64,000 bases of DNA, taken from Porphyromonas vaginalis. GTDB taxonomy: Bacteria; Bacteroidota; Bacteroidia; Bacteroidales; Porphyromonadaceae. The stretch spans positions 2,356,001 to 2,420,000 of the forward strand of contig NZ_CATQJU010000001.1 of assembly GCF_958301595.1 (NCBI RefSeq). The letters are read 5' to 3'. Of the stretch, positions 43,996-59,361 are shown piece by piece. Each line of letters starts with the position of its first letter. Positions within the stretch are counted from its first letter, which is position 1. The notes beneath the pieces are model-generated. The model was not told where the DNA came from and did no database searches. It was given only the letters and a program-made list of their open reading frames with translations. The position numbers and the translations under genes were made by a program.

Positions 43996-44072
43996 GGTCC
44001 TATAGCTCAGTTGGTTAGAGCACCTGACTCATAATCAGGGAGTCCTTGGTTCAAGCCCAAGTGGGACCACCA
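43996..44072 (+). tRNA. tRNA with CAT anticodon (Met, or Ile2)
   Basis: 77 nt with encoded CCA. Acceptor GGTCCTA/TGGGACC, D arm AGCTCAGTTGGTTAGAGC, anticodon loop CTCATAA giving CAT, and T arm TTGGTTCAAGCCCAA. Elongator Met and lysidine-modified Ile2 cannot be told apart from sequence alone. Its 3' end borders the prophage and is the likely integration site. Confidence 0.92.
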
Positions 44073-44339: not shown

Positions 44340-45516
44340 CGTACATTCCACCCGCTAATGCAATTTCTCAAGAATGATGTTTTTGATGACTTCATTGGGT
44401 GTCTTATAGTTTAGGTTTTTACGGGGTCTATTGTTTAGTAGGTTCTGAAAGCGTCTAAGGTCAGCGTCAGTTAAGTCTTCGAAAGTAGAGGCCTTAGGAA
44501 TAAACTGGCGTAGCAGTTTGTTTAGGTACTCAATATGAGGCTTATCCCAGGATTGATAGGGGTGGGCAAAGTAGACGGGCGTTTTGAGAGACCTCTCTAT
44601 GGTCTTAAACTTGGCAAACTCACTTCCATTGTCGGTTGTGATCGAGTGTAGCAGTCCCATCTTCTTGTAGTACCTCAGAGCTTTATTCACCTCTCTGGCG
44701 AGAGCTTTGGCATCCTTGCCATGCTCCAGAAGTCGTATGATAGTAAAGCCTGTAACACGCTCTACAAGCGTTAAAATTGCTCCTTTCTGCTCTTTGCCTA
44801 TAATGGTATCCATCTCAAAATCTCCTACTCGTGCCTTCTGGTCAATGCACTCAGGACGAGTCTCTATGGACTTTCGCTTAGGCCAGTCTGTTTTTATTGG
44901 TACGGCCAGGCGTCGCTTGCGATAAGCTAGCCCATGCCTTGTGTGTTTGTAAAGCTTGCCTCCAGCTTTCTTGTCTTGATGCAGGAACTTGTAAATGGAG
45001 GTCTTACCGACCATCGGCTTGCCCTCCAGCTTTCGCCTTCCAGCAATTTGCTCTGGAGACCATTTATGCTCTACAATGCACTGGACAATATCAGCTTTCA
45101 TAGCATTCGTCAATTTAGCTCTTGCCTTGTTCTTCCAGTCTTGTCGCTCTTTGGCAAACATCTGAGCCTGAGTAGGGCTATAGTTGCCAGCGGGTGTCAA
45201 GTTCCTCTTAATCTCTCTACAGATGGTGCTAGGGTGTACTCCTATGACCTCTGCGATCTTTTTTTGAGGCGTGTTAGTCTTCAGAAGAGCAGCAATTTCG
45301 TATCTTTGCGCTTGGGTTAGATGCATACTTGTATATAGCTAAGTTTTTGTTTCCACAGCAAATATACTGCATTAACCTTAAAGGGACGGTGAGCGCATCG
45401 TCCCTTTTTTCGTCTCGGCAGCTCGCTACCTGCTCCTCCCGCCCTCCTAGGAGAGGAGGGGGCGTCCGGAGCAGGGCGAGCTCCACTCCAAATTGCATTT
45501 TGGAGTGGAAAATACG
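44340..45516 (-). mobile_element. IS30-family insertion sequence
   Basis: 1177 bp. The ends are CGTACATTCCACCCG... on the left and, reverse-complemented, CGTATTTTCCACTCC... on the right, matching at 21 of 28 positions including AATGCAATTT. The 3-bp duplication ATC is at 44337-44339 and 45517-45519. The transposase runs leftward. Its promoter TATATTTG is on the minus strand (45366-45359). Between promoter and right end are a terminator-like hairpin (AAGGGACG/CGTCCCTT plus T run, about 45379-45411) and a GC-rich inverted repeat. Confidence 0.9.
44355..45326 (-). CDS. IS30-family transposase
   Basis: 323 residues. It has an N-terminal helix-turn-helix (KKIAEVIGVHPSTICREIKR), a second DNA-binding region and the DDE catalytic core. 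The acids are in GDFEMDTIIG, SITTDNGSEFAKF and KPHIEYLNKLLR. The typical C-terminal block NNRPRKNLNYKTPNEVI is present. The ORF is complete and its promoter lies inside the element. Confidence 0.93.
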   Translation of the reverse strand: MHLTQAQRYEIAALLKTNTPQKKIAEVIGVHPSTICREIKRNLTPAGNYSPTQAQMFAKERQDWKNKARAKLTNAMKADIVQCIVEHKWSPEQIAGRRKLEGKPMVGKTSIYKFLHQDKKAGGKLYKHTRHGLAYRKRRLAVPIKTDWPKRKSIETRPECIDQKARVGDFEMDTIIGKEQKGAILTLVERVTGFTIIRLLEHGKDAKALAREVNKALRYYKKMGLLHSITTDNGSEFAKFKTIERSLKTPVYFAHPYQSWDKPHIEYLNKLLRQFIPKASTFEDLTDADLRRFQNLLNNRPRKNLNYKTPNEVIKNIILEKLH

Positions 45517-46670
45517 ATCCCATTAAGTTACGCTACCGATACCGTGGCTCCGCACTATACTACACGCTGCCCATATCTATACGAGAGGAGTACTTTGTCG
45601 ATGGCGTTGTCGTGACGACACGCAATAGGCGTATGCTCAACAACCTCATCGAGGGCTATCGTCAGAGAGCGCAGGCGCTACTGGATATGCTCACAGACAG
45701 TGGAGATATGCAGACGTTCGCCAAGCCTAGCGACCTCAAGAGCTATGTAGACAGCGTATTGTCAGGAGACATAGACCCGACAGCAGAGCTAGAGCAAAGC
45801 GAAGCCCCCACCCTTGTAGGCATTATGGAGCGGTTCATCGAGGAGCGCAAGCCCATATCAGGATTTAAGTATGTTGATAGCATGCGATCGGCACAGACGA
45901 AAGTCGAGGACTACGACCATGGCGTATTGCTCAGCGAAGTAACCGTCCGCTGGCTCAGAGCCTTTGAGAATTATTGTCTCTCCGAAGGTATGTCACTCAA
46001 TGGTCTTGCCGTATATCTCAGGAACATTCGCACAGTCATCAACTACGCCATCGATATGGAGTTGATGTCTATAGACCAGTACCCATTCAGGCGATTCAAG
46101 ATACGCACGCAGCCCACACAGCACAGAGCATTGACCGCCGAAGAGCTAAAAGCGGTGCTAACCTACCAACCGACTGGAGAGAGAGATGCTAGAGCAAAAG
46201 ATATATTTATCCTCTCGCTATGCCTCTGCGGTATGAACGTCAGAGACCTAATCCTCATGAAGAAGTCCGACATACGTGGCGGACGCATTGAGACCTTACG
46301 ACAAAAGACAGACGTACCCATATCGCTCGCCATACCGCCCGAAGCGCTGGAAATCATAGAGCGACACAAAGGTAGTGGCGAGTACCTGCTCAACCTCATG
46401 GAGGTCTATGCACAGATAGAGTCCGTGCCAGGGCATCTCAACAAAGGGTTGCGCTGCATACTGCCACACCTGACCACCTACTACGCCAGACACACGTGGG
46501 CTACAATCGCCGCCGAGCTAGATGTACCCGACCCCGTTATCGATATGGCGCAAGGACGCACACCCACGGGCGTGACGGCTATCTACGTCAAGCGCAACCC
46601 ATACAAAGCTGACGAAGCCAACCGCAAGGTCTTGGATTATGTCTTTGGAGAGATAGATAAATAGCCCTGC

Positions 46671-46700
46671 TTGCTATTCAAAAAGAAAGCATTACATTTG
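46671..46700 (+). promoter_or_regulatory. Promoter of hicAB
   Basis: TTG at 46671-46673 and TACATTTG at 46693-46700 with exactly 19 bp between; 20 bp before hicA. HicB probably represses here through its C-terminal DNA-binding domain. Confidence 0.75.
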
Positions 46701-46719: not shown

Positions 46720-46905
46720 ATGAAGTATAGCGAGCTACACCGCAAGCTCAGGAAAGCGGGGTGCTACCCTACGGGGCTATCAATGGCTAAGCACCCACAG
46801 TGGTATAGCCCACACACGGGGCGAATGTTTTACACCAGTCACCACGACAAAGAAGAAGTGGCGGTCGGGACGCTAAAGAAAATCCTGCGAGAGGCGGGAC
46901 TCTAG
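46720..46905 (+). CDS. hicA: HicA toxin (mRNA interferase)
   Basis: 61-residue protein of the HicA family, a double-stranded-RNA-binding-like fold that cleaves mRNA. Visible pattern: LHRKLRKAGCYPTG, a central histidine in MAKHPQWYS where the catalytic His of the family lies, and the C-terminal GTLKKILREAGL signature. It is followed after 23 bp by hicB. Located between the integrase and the lysis genes, the pair probably acts in prophage maintenance or phage exclusion. Confidence 0.88.
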   Translation: MKYSELHRKLRKAGCYPTGLSMAKHPQWYSPHTGRMFYTSHHDKEEVAVGTLKKILREAGL

Positions 46906-46928
46906 TACAAACCAAAATCAATAAGACG

Positions 46929-47327
46929 ATGAAAGAGATTGTAGCACACATCGAGAGCAATATGCAAGGGCTTTACTCCATTTACGTAGAGGAGGATTTA
47001 GCTTATAGCGTCATCGGTGACGGCAAGACCATCGACGAGGCTAAGGCTGACTTCTTAGCCGTCTATGAAGCCTCTAGAGCAGACCACAAGGAGCGTACGG
47101 GAGAAGACGTAGCTTACACATTTCGCTTTGTGATGGACGTCACCGCCTTCTTACAGAGCTATAAGGGATACTTGACACTATCAGGGCTATCGCAACTCAC
47201 AGGCATCAACAAAGCGCAGCTCTCGCAATACGTCTGTGGCAAGAGACACCCTTCTGAGCGAACAGAAGAGCGCATCAAAGAAGCCGTCGAAAGCTTTGCC
47301 GAAGAGCTCAGCCGAGTCTTTGCGTGA
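46929..47327 (+). CDS. hicB: HicB antitoxin with helix-turn-helix
   Basis: 132 residues. The N-terminal HicB fold (about 1-60; GLYSIYVEEDLAYSVIGDGK TIDEAKADF, shown in two parts) binds and blocks HicA. The C-terminal helix-turn-helix (LTLSGLSQLTGINKAQLSQY, then VCGKRHPSERTEERI) should bind the hicAB promoter. Intact and in order toxin-antitoxin. Confidence 0.88.
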   Translation: MKEIVAHIESNMQGLYSIYVEEDLAYSVIGDGKTIDEAKADFLAVYEASRADHKERTGEDVAYTFRFVMDVTAFLQSYKGYLTLSGLSQLTGINKAQLSQYVCGKRHPSERTEERIKEAVESFAEELSRVFA

Positions 47328-54223: not shown

Positions 54224-55078
54224 CTACTTCATATCATACATACTCGGCCTGCGTAAAGGACGAACATCATCCTCAGCGTCAACGGCAGACTCCATATTAC
54301 TGCCTGTAGGATGGGGCAAACCATCACCCTCCGTACGCTTACGCTCCAGCTCGATACGCTCATTGCGCCCATCTACAAGGCCACGAGTCTCAGCCGTAGC
54401 CACATCTTGTGTGTACTGCATACCCTTCCACAACAGCTCCAGCGTCTCCTTACGCACCAAGCCAGTTATACCCTCATCAGCTATACGCACAAAGAGATCC
54501 ACGAGATCTCCCATCTCATCATCGCCCAGCTTATGCTCCTCCGCAAAGCTACTGATCACCTCGCCGCTCTCCTCCAGATTACGCTCACGACGCTCACTAT
54601 CATCACGCTCCTGACGCTCACGCTCTGCAGTCTCCTCGATACGCTTCTTATTCGCCTCAGCAACACGCTTAGCGACTTCAGGATCTCGCATATCTTCCTG
54701 CATCAAGTCATAGTAGTTCTTCGCAAAAGCCACACTAGGCTCCTCGCCGTTAGCCATATCATACATCACATCCACAAAGCGCGGATCGCGGCTAAACATC
54801 TCCTTGAGCTTCTCATCACTCTCTGCTAGACGATCATACTTACCACGCAGCTCATCATCATAATCCAGATAAGCACCATAGCGTGCATCCTCATCATCAT
54901 AATCCACGTCAGGGTAGTACGACCGTATGCGATCCATATACTCCTCACGCTTACTACGGGGAGACGCACCACCCATAGAGGCACCCTCCACATCTGTCCC
55001 ACCTGCTACGCCCTTTACACCAGTAGGTGCGTCAATCATAGCCGCAGCCTGCTCATCATAATCTCTTTCTGTAGCCAT
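54224..55078 (-). CDS. Phage scaffold protein
   Basis: 284 residues, very acidic and helical with a strongly charged coiled coil (KKRIEETAERERQERDDSER, about 145-170). A Gly/Ala-rich start and a C-terminal basic tail (RPLRRPSMYDMK) would bind capsid subunits. It is encoded directly before the capsid gene, the usual place for scaffolds. No protease motif seen. Confidence 0.72.
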   Translation of the reverse strand: MATERDYDEQAAAMIDAPTGVKGVAGGTDVEGASMGGASPRSKREEYMDRIRSYYPDVDYDDEDARYGAYLDYDDELRGKYDRLAESDEKLKEMFSRDPRFVDVMYDMANGEEPSVAFAKNYYDLMQEDMRDPEVAKRVAEANKKRIEETAERERQERDDSERRERNLEESGEVISSFAEEHKLGDDEMGDLVDLFVRIADEGITGLVRKETLELLWKGMQYTQDVATAETRGLVDGRNERIELERKRTEGDGLPHPTGSNMESAVDAEDDVRPLRRPSMYDMK

Positions 55079-55109
55079 ACGCTTCTACATTCATTCTACT
55101 TTACAAAAT

Positions 55110-55117
55110 CAAAGATA
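55110..55117 (-). promoter_or_regulatory. -7 box for scaffold-capsid unit
   Basis: On the minus strand TATCTTTG lies 32 bp before the scaffold start. The nearest TTG is too far (26 bp), so strength is unclear. Confidence 0.45.
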
Positions 55118-55157
55118 CATCACACACTTACATATACACGCCACAATATCCCAAATC

Positions 55158-55392
55158 CTCAGAGATTAGAAGTTAGACCTTAGAAATTAGAGCCGTGTAG
55201 CCCTTTGTAGGGACGTACCGTGGTGCGTCCGTTGTAGTACAGCGAGACTGCGCCTCCGATGGCTCCGATAGTTCTGATAGCTCCGATAGCTCCGATTACT
55301 ACGCGCCCTCTGATCACTCCGATCGCTCCGATTACTACGCGCCCTCCGATTCCCATCTAATCTCTAACCTCTAATTTCTAATCTCTAATTTG
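55158..55392. repeat. Mixed heptamer, REP-like and CTCCGATNN repeats
   Basis: Heptamers at 55158-55192 and 55356-55390 in opposite orientation flank a REP-like palindrome (GTAGGGACGTACCGTGGTGC, 55208 on) and a CTCCGATNN tract (55251-55353). The two heptamer tracts can pair and would enclose the rest. No coding signal. Confidence 0.7.
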
Positions 55393-55586
55393 GCGATATC
55401 CAATTCCCATATTACCTTTGTCTCCATAAAAGGATCTCCCTCATCTGAGATGCCTGCTAGAGGCGCAGTACCCACACCCATCCCCACCTGCGCTTCTATC
55501 TCTGAACCAGAGATCGCAGGCTCCCCACTCAGACGACAGGGGGATCTTTTTTACTTCCACCCCCCTCCGATTACTCCGACAAATGT

Positions 55587-55617
55587 TTGGATATTCAAAA
55601 AGAAACCACTACCTTTG
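55587..55617 (+). promoter_or_regulatory. Promoter of the structured ncRNA
   Basis: TTG at 55587-55589 and TACCTTTG at 55610-55617 with 20 bp between: a full Bacteroidetes promoter pointing against all neighbouring late genes. Confidence 0.75.
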
Positions 55618-55623
55618 CATCAG

Positions 55624-55842
55624 ATTATCGCCCTTAGGTGGAAAAAACTAAGGCTAGCCACTTCAGAAATGGAGTGGCTTATTTCTAGTGATATGACCTC
55701 CCACGCTTCCCACTAGAACAGCGCACCCGGGGAGGTCTTCGAGTAAAGTGCCAGCTTCAGCTTTTTGTCCTGAGGCTTGCACTATAATAGAGGGAAAAGG
55801 GGCTATATCCAGCGAAAGCGGTCGATATAGTCCCGTTTTTTT
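55624..55842 (+). ncRNA. Candidate structured small RNA with pseudoknot
   Basis: About 220 nt between a consensus promoter and an intrinsic terminator, with no convincing ORF. Helices seen: CCTTAG/CTAAGG (55632-55637/55648-55653); AGCCACT/AGTGGCT (55656-55662/55673-55679). A pseudoknot of TTCTAGTG/CACTAGAA (55683-55690/55711-55718) interleaves with GACCTCCC/GGGAGGTC (55695-55702/55730-55737). A 13-bp hairpin spans 55747-55783 (AGTGC...GCACT), then the terminator. Not recognised as 6S, tmRNA, SRP or a known riboswitch. Confidence 0.65.
55799..55842 (+). terminator. Intrinsic terminator of the ncRNA
   Basis: 11-bp stem GGGGCTATATC (55799-55809) / GATATAGTCCC (55824-55834), with an inner GCGAAAGC loop, followed by G and seven T. 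Confidence 0.85.
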
Positions 55843-55890
55843 ATACCCCCTCCCCACGAGTAGCACTTTGTAAGCACGCCACCACGAATC

Positions 55891-56050
55891 CTGTAGGGAC
55901 GCACGATCTGTGCGCCCGTTGTATCAAAGTGAGACGTCTAGCCCTCCGTAGGGGCGGACCTACGTGTCCGCCCGCCCGCCCCCGTCCACACCAGACTGCG
56001 CCTCCTCCGATCGCTCCGATACCTCCGATTGCTCTGATAGCTCCGATACA
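55891..56050. repeat. REP-like palindromes and CTCCGATNN tract
   Basis: Two palindromic units, GTAGGGACGCACGATCTGTG (55893 on) and GGGGCGGACCTACGTGTCCG (55950 on; stem GGGCGGAC/GTCCGCCC), then CTCCGATNN copies (56000-56050). They fill the space between the two convergent terminators. Confidence 0.65.
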
Positions 56051-56063
56051 GGCGCTCCTTCCC

Positions 56064-56108
56064 AAAAAAACATAGAGACCACGCACCCCATATAGTACGC
56101 GGTCTCTA
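56064..56108 (-). terminator. Intrinsic terminator of the CRISPR/82-residue-ORF unit
   Basis: Stem TAGAGACC / GGTCTCTA (56073-56080 / 56101-56108) with partial inner pairing. On the minus strand it is followed by ATG then seven T (56070-56064). Confidence 0.75.
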
Positions 56109-56172
56109 CTGACTTGATACCCCCGACATCTGCGATTAGAGAGGATCGGGGGAGGACTGTATGTAATTTGGT

Positions 56173-56421
56173 TCAGACAGTTGCTAATTCATACAAGATG
56201 TGGATGTCAGCCCCGTCCAACTCGTGCGGGTACTCAAGGTTGTACTCTTTTGACACTTCGAGAGCGTCCTGTAGCGTCTCACGGAGCTTCTTGTCCAGCT
56301 CGCCCATAGTCCGAGCGATGGCACTAGCACTAATATCGTGAGAAGATACGTACGCTGAGAGAGAGTTATCGTCACTCTCCAGCGTTGCGATTACGTTAAC
56401 ATTCTTCATCTCGTTTCTCAT
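56173..56421 (-). CDS. Small HicB-like protein encoded beside the mini-CRISPR
   Basis: 82 residues (78 if started at the second Met, 56409). MKNVNVIATLESDDNSLSAY, then ARTMGELDKKLRETLQDALE and ELDGADIHILYELA, fit a HicB-like RNase-H-type fold of the Bacteroidetes kind, but without the C-terminal DNA-binding domain and without a hicA neighbour. The only strong promoter upstream is beyond the CRISPR repeats (56594-56625), so the array lies in its leader. A weak box TACATTTT at 56445-56438 could also serve. Could be an orphan antitoxin, a CRISPR-interfering protein or a truncated HicB. Confidence 0.6.
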   Translation of the reverse strand: MRNEMKNVNVIATLESDDNSLSAYVSSHDISASAIARTMGELDKKLRETLQDALEVSKEYNLEYPHELDGADIHILYELATV

Positions 56422-56468
56422 TGATTATGATCTCAAAAAAATGTAGTGTCTTTGTAGATTGTCTTGTG

Positions 56469-56569
56469 GTTTCAATTCACGCACCCCGTGCGGGGTGCGA
56501 CAGTCGCTCGCCCTCGTTGCGGTTGCTGTGGCTCGTGTTTCAATTCACGCACCCCGTGCGGGGTGCGAC
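56469..56569 (-). CRISPR. Solitary one-spacer CRISPR, type I-C-like repeats
   Basis: Two identical 33-bp repeats (56469-56501 and 56537-56569) flank one 35-bp spacer (56502-56536). On the minus strand each repeat runs GTCGCACCCC...GTGCGTGAATTGAAAC, with the palindromic stem GCACCCC/GGGGTGC and the ATTGAAAC 3' handle typical of type I-C. The spacer length also fits I-C. A minus-strand consensus promoter 25 bp upstream gives the canonical crRNA direction. No cas genes are in the window. It lies inside the prophage between terS and the 82-residue ORF. Confidence 0.85.
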
Positions 56570-56593
56570 AGCTTCTACCCTCCCTTTACGATG

Positions 56594-56625
56594 CAAAGGT
56601 AGGAAACCCAAAGCAAAAAAAACAA
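56594..56625 (-). promoter_or_regulatory. Promoter of the mini-CRISPR unit
   Basis: On the minus strand TTG (56625-56623) and TACCTTTG (56601-56594) are 21 bp apart. The expected start near 56587 is about 18 nt before the first repeat. Confidence 0.75.
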
Positions 56626-56640
56626 TAGCCCAAACCACCA

Positions 56641-56714
56641 CTCCGATTACTCCGATCCACTCCGATCACTCCGATTCTCTCTAACCTCTAACCTCTAACA
56701 TCTAATCTCTACTC
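56641..56714. repeat. CTCCGATNN and heptamer tracts after terS
   Basis: CTCCGATTACTCCGATCCAC (56641 on) followed by TCTAACCTCTAACCTCTAAC (56679 on). Located at the 3' end of the terS gene, upstream of the mini-CRISPR promoter. Confidence 0.7.
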
Positions 56715-57137
56715 TCCCCCCTTCCCACCAAAATAAGTCTCAATCACAAACCGCCTAGCAGAGCTATTCAGCTCACGATCATCCTCGTGCTTAGTCTCTG
56801 GCACCGAGTACTTGTACATCGTCAGATAAGCATCAACCTGATCTCTAGGAGTCATCTTAGCAAACGCTGTATTGAAGTCCTCAAAGTGATCCTCAAGCCA
56901 AGCCGACATCTTAGCTCGTAGATTCACAGACACATTATTACCGCTACCCATACGACGGCCTGGACGTGCCACAGGTACACCCTCCACAACCTCCATAAGC
57001 GAGTTAAACCCTCGCTCTGAGACCTCCGTCACAAGGCACTTTTCACCCTTAGCACTCTTCCCTCTAGGCTTCTTACTCCGCACCTTACCCTGACCACCCA
57101 CAACAACCTCCTTAGACTTACCTCTACTCTCGCTCAT
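56709..57137 (-). CDS. Terminase small subunit (putative)
   Basis: 142 residues. It has a basic, probably disordered N-terminus (SKKPRGKSAKGEK) and then a helical domain (NVSVNLRAKMSAWLEDHFED, TPRDQVDAYLTMYKYSVPE). This fits the DNA-binding and oligomerisation domains of small terminases. It is adjacent to terL, and three phased iterons lie just upstream of its start. Assignment is by size, basic N-terminus and position. Confidence 0.65.
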   Translation of the reverse strand: MSESRGKSKEVVVGGQGKVRSKKPRGKSAKGEKCLVTEVSERGFNSLMEVVEGVPVARPGRRMGSGNNVSVNLRAKMSAWLEDHFEDFNTAFAKMTPRDQVDAYLTMYKYSVPETKHEDDRELNSSARRFVIETYFGGKGGE

Positions 57138-57172
57138 ACTAATCTCTAATCTCTAATCCAATCTCTCCAAAA

Positions 57173-57231
57173 TAGTTGCCCAATTATCATTTGATAGTTG
57201 CCCAACTATTTTTCATTAGTTGCCCAACTAT
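57173..57231. repeat. Three phased TAGTTGCCCAA iterons upstream of terS
   Basis: TAGTTGCCCAA at 57173-57183, 57195-57205 and 57217-57227: exact 22-bp spacing, two helical turns. Each is part of an imperfect palindrome ATAGTTG-CC-CAACTAT. They lie in the terL-terS gap. Candidate packaging site (pac) bound by TerS, or operator. Confidence 0.65.
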
Positions 57232-57297
57232 TTCCAGCCCCCCCACTGCGCCCTCCGATAGCTCCGATAGCTCCGATTACTATGCGCCAGCCAACCT

Positions 57298-59361
57298 CTA
57301 AATCGACGCCATACGTCCCTCACTCCTCACATACACAGCTCCCGCACTATCCACAGTCGTCGGCATAGGCATCTCCTCGTAAGCAACATACAGAGCTATC
57401 ATACGAGTCATTACACGGTCATCGTGATTACCATTGCCACTCACATTTCCATAAGACCCATCACTACGCTTCTCATAGATCAAAGCCTCATTAATCATCT
57501 CCTCACAACGCTCCACATAGCCACCACCATCGCGCACCTCTCGAAGCAACGATATATAATTATCGATGATCATACGCTTCGTAGCCTTATTCGTATGGAA
57601 ACCATACTTAGGTGGCACACCCTCACGAACCTGTACCTTAGACGCACGAGCATACAGATGTGGATAAACGTCTGAGATCAAACTAAAGATAAACTCACTA
57701 TGATCTCCGTCAGACAAAAAGCTCTCCATACGACTATCATACGTATTGCTCTCAAACACCAGCAGAGCATCCGAATACCACTTAGCTATCTGAGTAGCAT
57801 TCCATGCCAATAAATCTATATCCGTATGCCCGTGCCACTCCGCTACAATCTCGGGTACCTCACCATAAAGCATCCAGTACCTATCCAAGACGCAGATACA
57901 AGACGGGTCGCTACTACTGCTGCGCCCTCCAGGGTCTACAACAACCACATACCTATCGCGCACCTCCACACTACGATCAGGCCACTGCCACACCTTCAGG
58001 TGTCCATCACTCCGCTCTTCGAACGTCAACCCCTCCAGTAGCTCACCTCGCTTATGGAGATCCAGCTTAACCTCCGAGACACTCACACGACTAGAGTACA
58101 GCTCACCCACAGCGATAGCCTCCATACAACCACCACGCAGCTCCTCCAGACGCATACGATCGAAGATCATCTCCCCCGAATGCCTAAACGCCTCCACGTC
58201 CGTACTCGGGAACTCCTGCATCATCTGATCATCACTACCCAGCTCCTGACGCTTCAGACGATACCACTGGATAGCCTCCAGCGTTGCGCCTAGTGAAAAC
58301 AAACTCCGCTCATACCCACTCAAGCTACGCACAAAAGTCTCCTCATCACCCTCCACAGGACAACTATAGATGTCTATGCAAAACCACTCCACAAAGACTG
58401 GCACATTACGACCCTCACCACGCTTAGCCTTCAGCCACTCCGTGTGAAAGTAATTACCCACACCCTTAGCCGTACTCTCATACACAATCATCGAGAGCGG
58501 CACATTAGGGATAATAGACGTCACAGACGCTATAAGCTCCTCTGGAGTATTATTGGCCGTCGTCGGATAGATGCCAACCTCCGAAAAGTGCGCCAAGTGA
58601 ACCGACTGAGACCGAATACTATCGGGACGGATAGCACTTCCCACCGTTATACTACACCCGCGACCATCTATATTACGAGCCGTCTGCATACCATTCTTCG
58701 GCGACAACGTCAGGGCTACACGACCTTCCTCCACTGGCATCGACTCCACAGCATGATTATACATAGACATAATATTCCGTGCTGCATCTTGTGTATGTGC
58801 ACAGATTGAAGACGAAAAGCCCTTAACCAAAACAGTCTGAATCCACAAGAAGTACATCTGCACCAACGTACTTCCTCCCCACTGGCGAGCCTTAAGCAAG
58901 ATCACACGAATAGGCTCACGAGCCAGACGCATCTCCTCAAACACACCCAGCAGTCGCCTCTGACCCCTATTCAACACAAACCGTATAGGCAACCCACTCA
59001 GCTTATCCATAATCTTCAGGTTGGTGTAAGCGTAGTACTCAAAATCATACTGACAGCGACAACGGGCGAACTCCAGCAAGAACGCAAAGTATATATCCTG
59101 CGTAAACTTCCCTCCTCCAGACTCTACCAACCCACGCACACTACCACTCCTCGCTAAGTCGCGTACCACATCCTCCTTATCCCACATCTCACACGGCAAC
59201 CACAGCTCACCACCAGGATAGTCCGACAATTGCAACACACGCCTAGGCGTACTCACACAACCCTCCCCCGTAAGAGGATTGTGGCGTGACCCATGCTCTG
59301 CCTTACGACGAGCATTCTCAGCGATCACACTACCTATATCCTCAAACGTCCAATCCATCAA
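57298..59361 (-). CDS. terL: Terminase large subunit
   Basis: 687-residue packaging motor. The N-terminal ATPase has a deviant Walker A KARQWGGSTLVQ and Walker B MIVYESTAKG with the catalytic Glu. The C-terminal RNase-H-type nuclease begins at VVVDPGGRSSSSDPSCICVL and continues with LLVFESNTYDSR. It is longer than average, with an N-terminal extension of about 100 residues. It overlaps the upstream 208-residue gene by 4 bp (ATGA). It lies downstream of the portal in transcription order, the reverse of many tailed phages. Confidence 0.88.
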   Translation of the reverse strand: MMDWTFEDIGSVIAENARRKAEHGSRHNPLTGEGCVSTPRRVLQLSDYPGGELWLPCEMWDKEDVVRDLARSGSVRGLVESGGGKFTQDIYFAFLLEFARCRCQYDFEYYAYTNLKIMDKLSGLPIRFVLNRGQRRLLGVFEEMRLAREPIRVILLKARQWGGSTLVQMYFLWIQTVLVKGFSSSICAHTQDAARNIMSMYNHAVESMPVEEGRVALTLSPKNGMQTARNIDGRGCSITVGSAIRPDSIRSQSVHLAHFSEVGIYPTTANNTPEELIASVTSIIPNVPLSMIVYESTAKGVGNYFHTEWLKAKRGEGRNVPVFVEWFCIDIYSCPVEGDEETFVRSLSGYERSLFSLGATLEAIQWYRLKRQELGSDDQMMQEFPSTDVEAFRHSGEMIFDRMRLEELRGGCMEAIAVGELYSSRVSVSEVKLDLHKRGELLEGLTFEERSDGHLKVWQWPDRSVEVRDRYVVVVDPGGRSSSSDPSCICVLDRYWMLYGEVPEIVAEWHGHTDIDLLAWNATQIAKWYSDALLVFESNTYDSRMESFLSDGDHSEFIFSLISDVYPHLYARASKVQVREGVPPKYGFHTNKATKRMIIDNYISLLREVRDGGGYVERCEEMINEALIYEKRSDGSYGNVSGNGNHDDRVMTRMIALYVAYEEMPMPTTVDSAGAVYVRSEGRMASI

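Follow-up and report, generated by a model that had tools for sequence, protein, structure and literature searches.

A two-repeat type I-C CRISPR unit, apparently a cas-less mini-array, on a prophage of Porphyromonas vaginalis

Does a prophage that carries CRISPR repeats of the type used by its host turn the host CRISPR machinery against a rival, or does it keep that machinery occupied? The question is raised by a unit in the window, that is, the whole stretch of 64,000 nucleotides analysed here, which lies within contig C1 of the 2.52-Mb host genome (G000). Because the repeats of this unit are within one base of those of the host, it probably does one or the other.

The repeat pair and the prophage that carries it

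The unit (56469-56569) consists of two repeats of 33 nt, identical at 33/33 positions, with one spacer of 35 nt between them, a size within the one or two spacers by which mini-arrays are recognized. Its crRNA sense is the minus strand, on which repeat 1 (56537..56569) is transcribed first, followed by the spacer (56502..56536) and by repeat 2 (56469..56501), whose 3' end is the ATTGAAAC handle; because AG follows both copies, the identity between the repeats stretches to 35 nt. The two identical repeats and the spacer stand as they were given in the preliminary description, and its label 'solitary' is better replaced by 'mini-array', since there are two repeats and one spacer. On the minus strand, each repeat comprises a hairpin followed by TGAATTGAAAC, which we take to be the form of a type I-C repeat. 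Across the window and 80 kb of surrounding sequence, nothing else resembles the repeat more closely than the reverse strand of the palindrome itself, at 11 mismatches, and the remaining 13 copies in the genome (three or fewer mismatches) all lie within the chromosomal I-C array, so a common dispersed palindrome unrelated to CRISPR, an alternative raised at the outset, fails to account for the pair.

The chromosomal I-C array (G000:C1:195225-196068) comprises 13 repeats, of which the distal one is degenerate, with 12 intervening spacers 33-36 nt long, a range that includes the length of the prophage spacer, and is adjoined by cas2, cas1, cas4, cas7c, cas8c, cas5c and cas3, all with open frames (the 771-aa frame of cas3 spans the contiguous stretches L009 and L047). 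Its repeat, also of 33 nt, equals that of the prophage at 32/33 bases, the single difference falling in the hairpin loop; the folds of the two repeats are alike, at -16.6 kcal/mol each, and the TACCTTTG box described below has the same orientation relative to the repeat in both. Unlike the prophage unit, the chromosomal array has 13 repeats with a leader and cas genes adjacent, and its 12 spacers do not include that of the unit. The comparison with I-C arrays of the same genome, proposed earlier as a check, thus yields a repeat one base different next to a complete and open I-C locus, and the objection that related hosts might lack an I-C system falls. Within the chromosomal array, at L009 12394-12496, two adjacent spacers are identical and, as judged by eye, could form a strong hairpin.

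Matches to the repeat with at most three mismatches occur in 8 of the 26 genus genomes, the host's own included, and among these eight the prophage pair is the only array-independent group, the groups of G024 and G025 being split over contig ends. In the array of G001, 29 of the 30 copies are the exact prophage repeat and the remaining one is a degenerate end repeat; the seven Cas proteins of this genome are 91-98% identical to those of the host. The assignment to type I-C is borne out in that the array with the identical repeat (G001) and the one with the repeat one base off (G000) both adjoin I-C cas genes. An array of Porphyromonadaceae bacterium FC4 (L062 2300-4540) contains mixed repeat variants, with two copies of the exact prophage variant; as a mini-array it was rejected, being a long I-C array.

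That the repeat equals the one in another genome of the genus (G001), not that of the resident array, could mean that the unit is a non-functional passenger, namely, a fragment of an I-C array of another Porphyromonas that entered the prophage by recombination and serves no function. The same reading draws on the failure to find a spacer target in the collections searched and on the restriction of the unit to one prophage in the data searched (relatives: the best 80 of at least 568). We consider it improbable: both repeats are perfect, and the flanks of the unit are, by eye, unlike array flanks.

The unit lies within an integrated phage genome. A 46-bp attachment core at the 3' end of a tRNA-Met gene (44027..44072, plus strand) is repeated exactly at G000:C1:2449483-2449528, and the presence of this att repeat at both ends delimits an element of 49.5 kb. 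The genes of the element include those for an integrase (45612..46664, plus strand; phrog_1, E=2.2e-26), an endolysin, TerL and the portal protein. The latter three are on the strand of the unit, so that the array and the late genes have the same direction; together with the att sites, this upholds the phage late-region setting described previously. A tblastn search with the seven I-C Cas proteins of the host (E<=0.1) detected no host-type I-C cas genes on the prophage; hence the unit resides on a prophage free of such genes, as mini-arrays do. The identity of the repeat to that of a genus array is also compatible with a role of the unit as a recombination or integration site for host CRISPR arrays. 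This we regard as the least credible of the alternatives and very nearly negligible, considering that the prophage has its own integrase and is inserted at a tRNA-Met gene with an att core of 46 bp.

Several other features of the element deserve mention in their own right. A polyvalent protein of about 4890 aa (4889 aa; L011 1465-16137) combines an N6-methylase, a helicase and two MuF-C stretches, and, by eye, it contains two nearly unchanged copies of a segment of about 100 aa. Beside the integrase, the region 46720-47327 of the window contains a HicA toxin gene (Pfam E=3e-9) and a downstream ORF of 132 aa, for which helix-turn-helix matches were sub-threshold only; a promoter-like site lies at 46693. 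Inside the prophage, adjoining the att site and the integrase, an ORF of 323 aa (window 44355-45326) reads like a transposase of the IS30 type.

Signals for transcription and the neighboring small gene

A Bacteroidota-type promoter-like site, TTG followed after 21 nt by TACCTTTG, is located at 56594..56625 on the minus strand and points into the array, with 24 nt between the TACCTTTG box and the first prophage repeat. We take this arrangement, TTG, a gap and TACCTTTG, to be the Bacteroidota promoter consensus. Sites of this form (gap 18-22) number seven when both strands of 48.3 kb of prophage sequence are counted, or about one per 14 kb of strand, from which the probability that one falls by chance within 100 nt and on the correct strand is near 0.7%; the occurrence of so infrequent a site at the right place and on the right strand also speaks against the passenger reading. 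No sigma-70 site was found upstream of the array, the scan having returned 2 matches in 2.4 kb versus 2.5 in shuffled sequences. Accordingly, the promoter in the crRNA direction that had been claimed is retained, as a site of the Bacteroidota type and not of the sigma-70 type.

The TACCTTTG box is found 8-9 nt before the first repeat in the leaders of G000, G001, G022 and G025, and also beside the contig-end repeat of G024, and its position is taken by TACATTTG in G003 and by TATCTTTG in G019; the leader of G013 has no box of this kind. Visual comparison with the leaders of the genus reveals nothing of a host-type leader at the prophage unit apart from the box, and for that reason the acquisition of new spacers by the unit is probably impossible.

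The terminator that had been placed at the end of the unit was not recovered there: none lies directly 3' of the array on its strand. The sole minus-strand terminator-like site in 55000-57400, a hairpin of 16 pairs with a T run, is at 56109-56072 (minus strand, 56072..56109), past an ORF of 82 aa (the scan gave 3 sites on both strands of 2.4 kb versus 1.3 in shuffled sequences). Since the likely terminator is located beyond this ORF, the array and the ORF probably share one transcript.

The ORF (56173..56421, minus strand) encodes an acidic protein, which we regard as a candidate accessory or counter-defence protein. It matches phrog_14457 weakly (E=1.6e-4, residues 11-80), and this family in turn gives matches in 9 of 247 genomes of the order, the host's own included, that are too weak for use. 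There was no PADLOC match and no Pfam match above the cut-off, although both resources may not contain known anti-CRISPRs; no homologues were found in phages (E<=1), in 37 other genomes of the family or in viral contigs. An AlphaFold model of the protein, made without an alignment, has a mean pLDDT of 61.

The minimum-energy fold of the 176 nt at 56425-56600 (z = -3.2) has the two repeats paired with each other, without individual hairpins; as modeled, such mutual pairing could compete with crRNA processing.

The unit is contained in a stretch of 2219 nt between TerL and a scaffold-like gene (55079..57297, minus strand), which also harbors an ORF of 142 aa (56709-57137) and which, judging from the sequence, looks like an accessory site. 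The corresponding gap in collinear relatives is about 130 nt in L059, and tblastn estimates are 596 nt in L118 and 1296 nt in L105. Within the same stretch, on the plus strand at 55587-55690, another promoter-like site of the Bacteroidota type (box 55610) precedes a terminator-like hairpin (55656-55679) by no more than about 70 nt; this arrangement, convergent to the array, is a candidate small RNA. Between TerL and the 142-aa ORF, at 57172-57237, three tandem units of 22 nt have inverted repeats around AGTTGCCCAACTAT, a possible operator or packaging site.

The spacer and the relatives of the prophage

The preliminary description had called for the spacer to be sought in phage, plasmid and Porphyromonas genomes, and no protospacer came to light in any collection searched. 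With up to three mismatches, the spacer matched only itself in the 26 genus genomes and in 393 genomes of the order (the host's own included in both), and the chromosome and the prophage likewise contain no match besides the spacer itself. A blastn search against phages and plasmids returned short, weak matches in unrelated organisms; a 29-nt spacer pattern with positions 6, 12 and 18 left free had no match in genome_contigs; and a 21-nt pattern retrieved two stretches from viral_contigs, the better of which (L060) matches at 25/35 positions and was rejected as a target, this score equaling that of the best shuffled spacer. In about 1.03 Mb of DNA from the best of at least 568 TerL relatives, the top match was 23/35, within the range of shuffled spacers. 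The missing target says little, given that the late genes have no DNA-level match among phage records and that the closest viral TerL among the matches listed is 50% identical.

CreA-like RNAs consist of two repeat-like parts and one spacer, and by this likeness in layout the unit could give rise to a regulatory crRNA, whose spacer seed would pair in part with a promoter of the host or a phage and so let the I-C complex repress that promoter. This appears very unlikely. The 11-nt seed pattern occurs nine times in the genome, one of these being the spacer itself, versus 13 times for the reversed control; the other eight sites have no TTC or TTT flank, and the best match is 21/35.

Close relatives of the prophage were not found in the collections searched. 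Single-protein scans of viral_contigs with TerL and with the capsid protein retrieved no relatives, and a two-sequence TerL profile yielded at least 568, of which the best 80 were kept. Of 62 relatives that have a capsid match, 57 carry it on the other strand; in L090, L093 and L094, the strand is the same but the match lies a long way upstream of TerL. Homologues of the 82-aa or the 142-aa protein were not detected in 81 TerL relatives (E<=1e-3; best of at least 568), 56 of which have at least 2.5 kb of downstream sequence. Neither a CRISPR-like pair, defined as an exact repeat of at least 23 nt at a distance of 45-89, nor a ATTGAAAC hairpin was present in any of the 80 viral relatives scanned (again, the best 80 of at least 568), and the exact prophage repeat is absent from viral_contigs. 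L115, considered as a direct-repeat array, was rejected as a coding repeat. In this limited sample (80 of at least 568 relatives), the unit was seen in no phage but this one.

A strict I-C-like pattern retrieved 18 stretches from viral_contigs. A single repeat is present in 12 of them, among which two pairs share flanks, while 2 contain two repeats and 4 contain at least four; several of the 18 are near the end of the sequence. With 12 single repeats against 2 double ones, the two-repeat form to which the prophage unit belongs is less common than the single-repeat form. The single I-C-type repeats include ten distinct ones on IMG/VR contigs (L071, L073, L074, L075, L077, L079, L081, L084, L085 and L086), which are RNA anti-CRISPR candidates, some of them near the end of a contig or stretch. 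In the viral contig L082 (2683-2781), two I-C-like repeats flank a 'spacer' that repeats a hairpin-like stretch found just upstream, possibly a decoy-type array. The short array L066, which is located on a MAG contig and showed no phage gene as a neighbor, was discarded as a phage-borne array. We found no report of a phage-borne CRISPR array in this genus in the literature searched, including the available text of the P. gingivalis phage paper (PMC10367356).

Guide against a competitor or decoy for the host

The original proposal of a prophage-borne, cas-less I-C mini-array that serves either to target competitors or to occupy Cas proteins is supported, at the level of sequence, by the host I-C locus, the repeats and the lack of I-C cas genes on the prophage. 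On balance, and with confidence just past the midpoint, we interpret the unit as a phage-borne type I-C mini-array whose crRNA would be made and loaded by host I-C proteins and would most likely be aimed at a competitor not represented in the databases. The prophage promoter would give rise to a pre-crRNA that host Cas5c would cleave at the repeat hairpins; the crRNA would be loaded into the host Cas5c-Cas7c-Cas8c complex, with Cas3, and the loaded complex would attack an element bearing the protospacer, most likely a competing phage, while the 82-aa protein is probably encoded on the same transcript. Attack on the carrier of the protospacer would, we propose, allow the lysogen to exclude a rival with the prophage and the host unharmed. 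Of the possible uses, excluding a competitor is the most probable, since a full spacer framed by two intact repeats amounts to a complete guide and since host and prophage are not targeted; the absence of a self-match in either would be as expected for a weapon against others.

This interpretation is favored by the I-C geometry of the unit, the open set of host cas genes with a 12-spacer array, the repeat identical to that of G001 and the promoter-like site. Against it count the lack of a protospacer in any collection searched, the lack of a similar unit with another spacer in the best 80 of at least 568 relatives, the predicted folding of the repeats with each other, the lack of a host-type leader and the one-base difference from the host repeat in the loop. 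Mini-arrays of phages have repeats identical to those of their hosts and target mostly related viruses, according to the available text of PMC11656645 and PMC6858448. Perhaps the most relevant precedents are SPV1 and SPV2 of Saccharolobus (Medvedeva et al. 2019, PMC6858448; reviewed in PMC11656645), which, as far as the available text goes, share with the prophage unit 1-2 spacers, host-type repeats, the absence of cas genes, a location on a virus and a promoter upstream. By the same text (PMC6858448), they differ in having several spacers with known targets in related viruses and host-like leaders; by contrast, for the prophage unit no target was found, there is a promoter-like site without a leader, the host belongs to Bacteroidota and the type is I-C.

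The main alternative, though a rather unlikely one, is a decoy akin to the RNA anti-CRISPRs, in which strongly transcribed repeats would occupy Cas5c and Cas7c or whole I-C complexes and so lower the immunity of the host to this phage; the spacer then need not match anything, and the 82-aa protein, from the same transcript, may serve as an inhibitory partner. A spacer with no target in the collections searched fits such a decoy, as do the unit's own promoter-like site and the probable sharing of a transcript with a small ORF. So does an I-C spacer of the congener G025, one of 124 spacers in the fetched arrays (the prophage's own among them), which matches the prophage at 31/34 positions (L011:4082), beside CTTT, whereas the best shuffled spacer reaches 25/35; hence I-C pressure exists on this phage lineage. 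However, none of the 12 spacers of the host matches the prophage (best 23/33 and 24/35), two complete repeats with a full-length spacer should yield an ordinary crRNA, and neither PADLOC nor Pfam, both of which may lack known anti-CRISPRs, gave a significant match for the 82-aa protein.

A Racr against type I-C that shares its RNA with AcrIC5 has already been demonstrated, as the available text of PMC10651486 has it. RNA anti-CRISPRs such as RacrIC1 (Camara-Wilpert et al. 2023) and the prophage unit each comprise a phage-encoded I-C repeat with a promoter-like site, no cas genes, a host with the matching subtype (here, a complete I-C locus) and a small ORF on the same RNA (probably so for the prophage), in the account available of PMC10651486. 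Unlike RacrIC1 as it is described there, the prophage unit has two repeats and a full spacer in place of one repeat, and the neighboring ORF is no known acr. The rule in the available text of PMC10651486 admits no second full repeat within 100 bp, whereas an identical repeat lies 35 bp away here, and the published search for such solitary units leaves out pairs of this kind as arrays. Because this family is defined, in that text, by a lone repeat, the unit is strictly not a solitary-repeat Racr.

A more elaborate combination of these elements, which we consider doubtful, would make the locus a counter-defence operon, in which an RNA anti-CRISPR of array type, with two repeats, would load host I-C complexes with a non-targeting crRNA, accompanied by a co-transcribed 82-aa inhibitor and with a repeat tuned to the sister species from which the phage came.

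Virus-borne mini-arrays are a known kind of element, to which the mini-array interpretation of the prophage unit adds a case of type I-C in Bacteroidota. With the phage unit, the matching I-C locus, the promoter-like site and the spacer of a congener all in hand, the choice between a weapon against rivals and a decoy for the host becomes directly testable.
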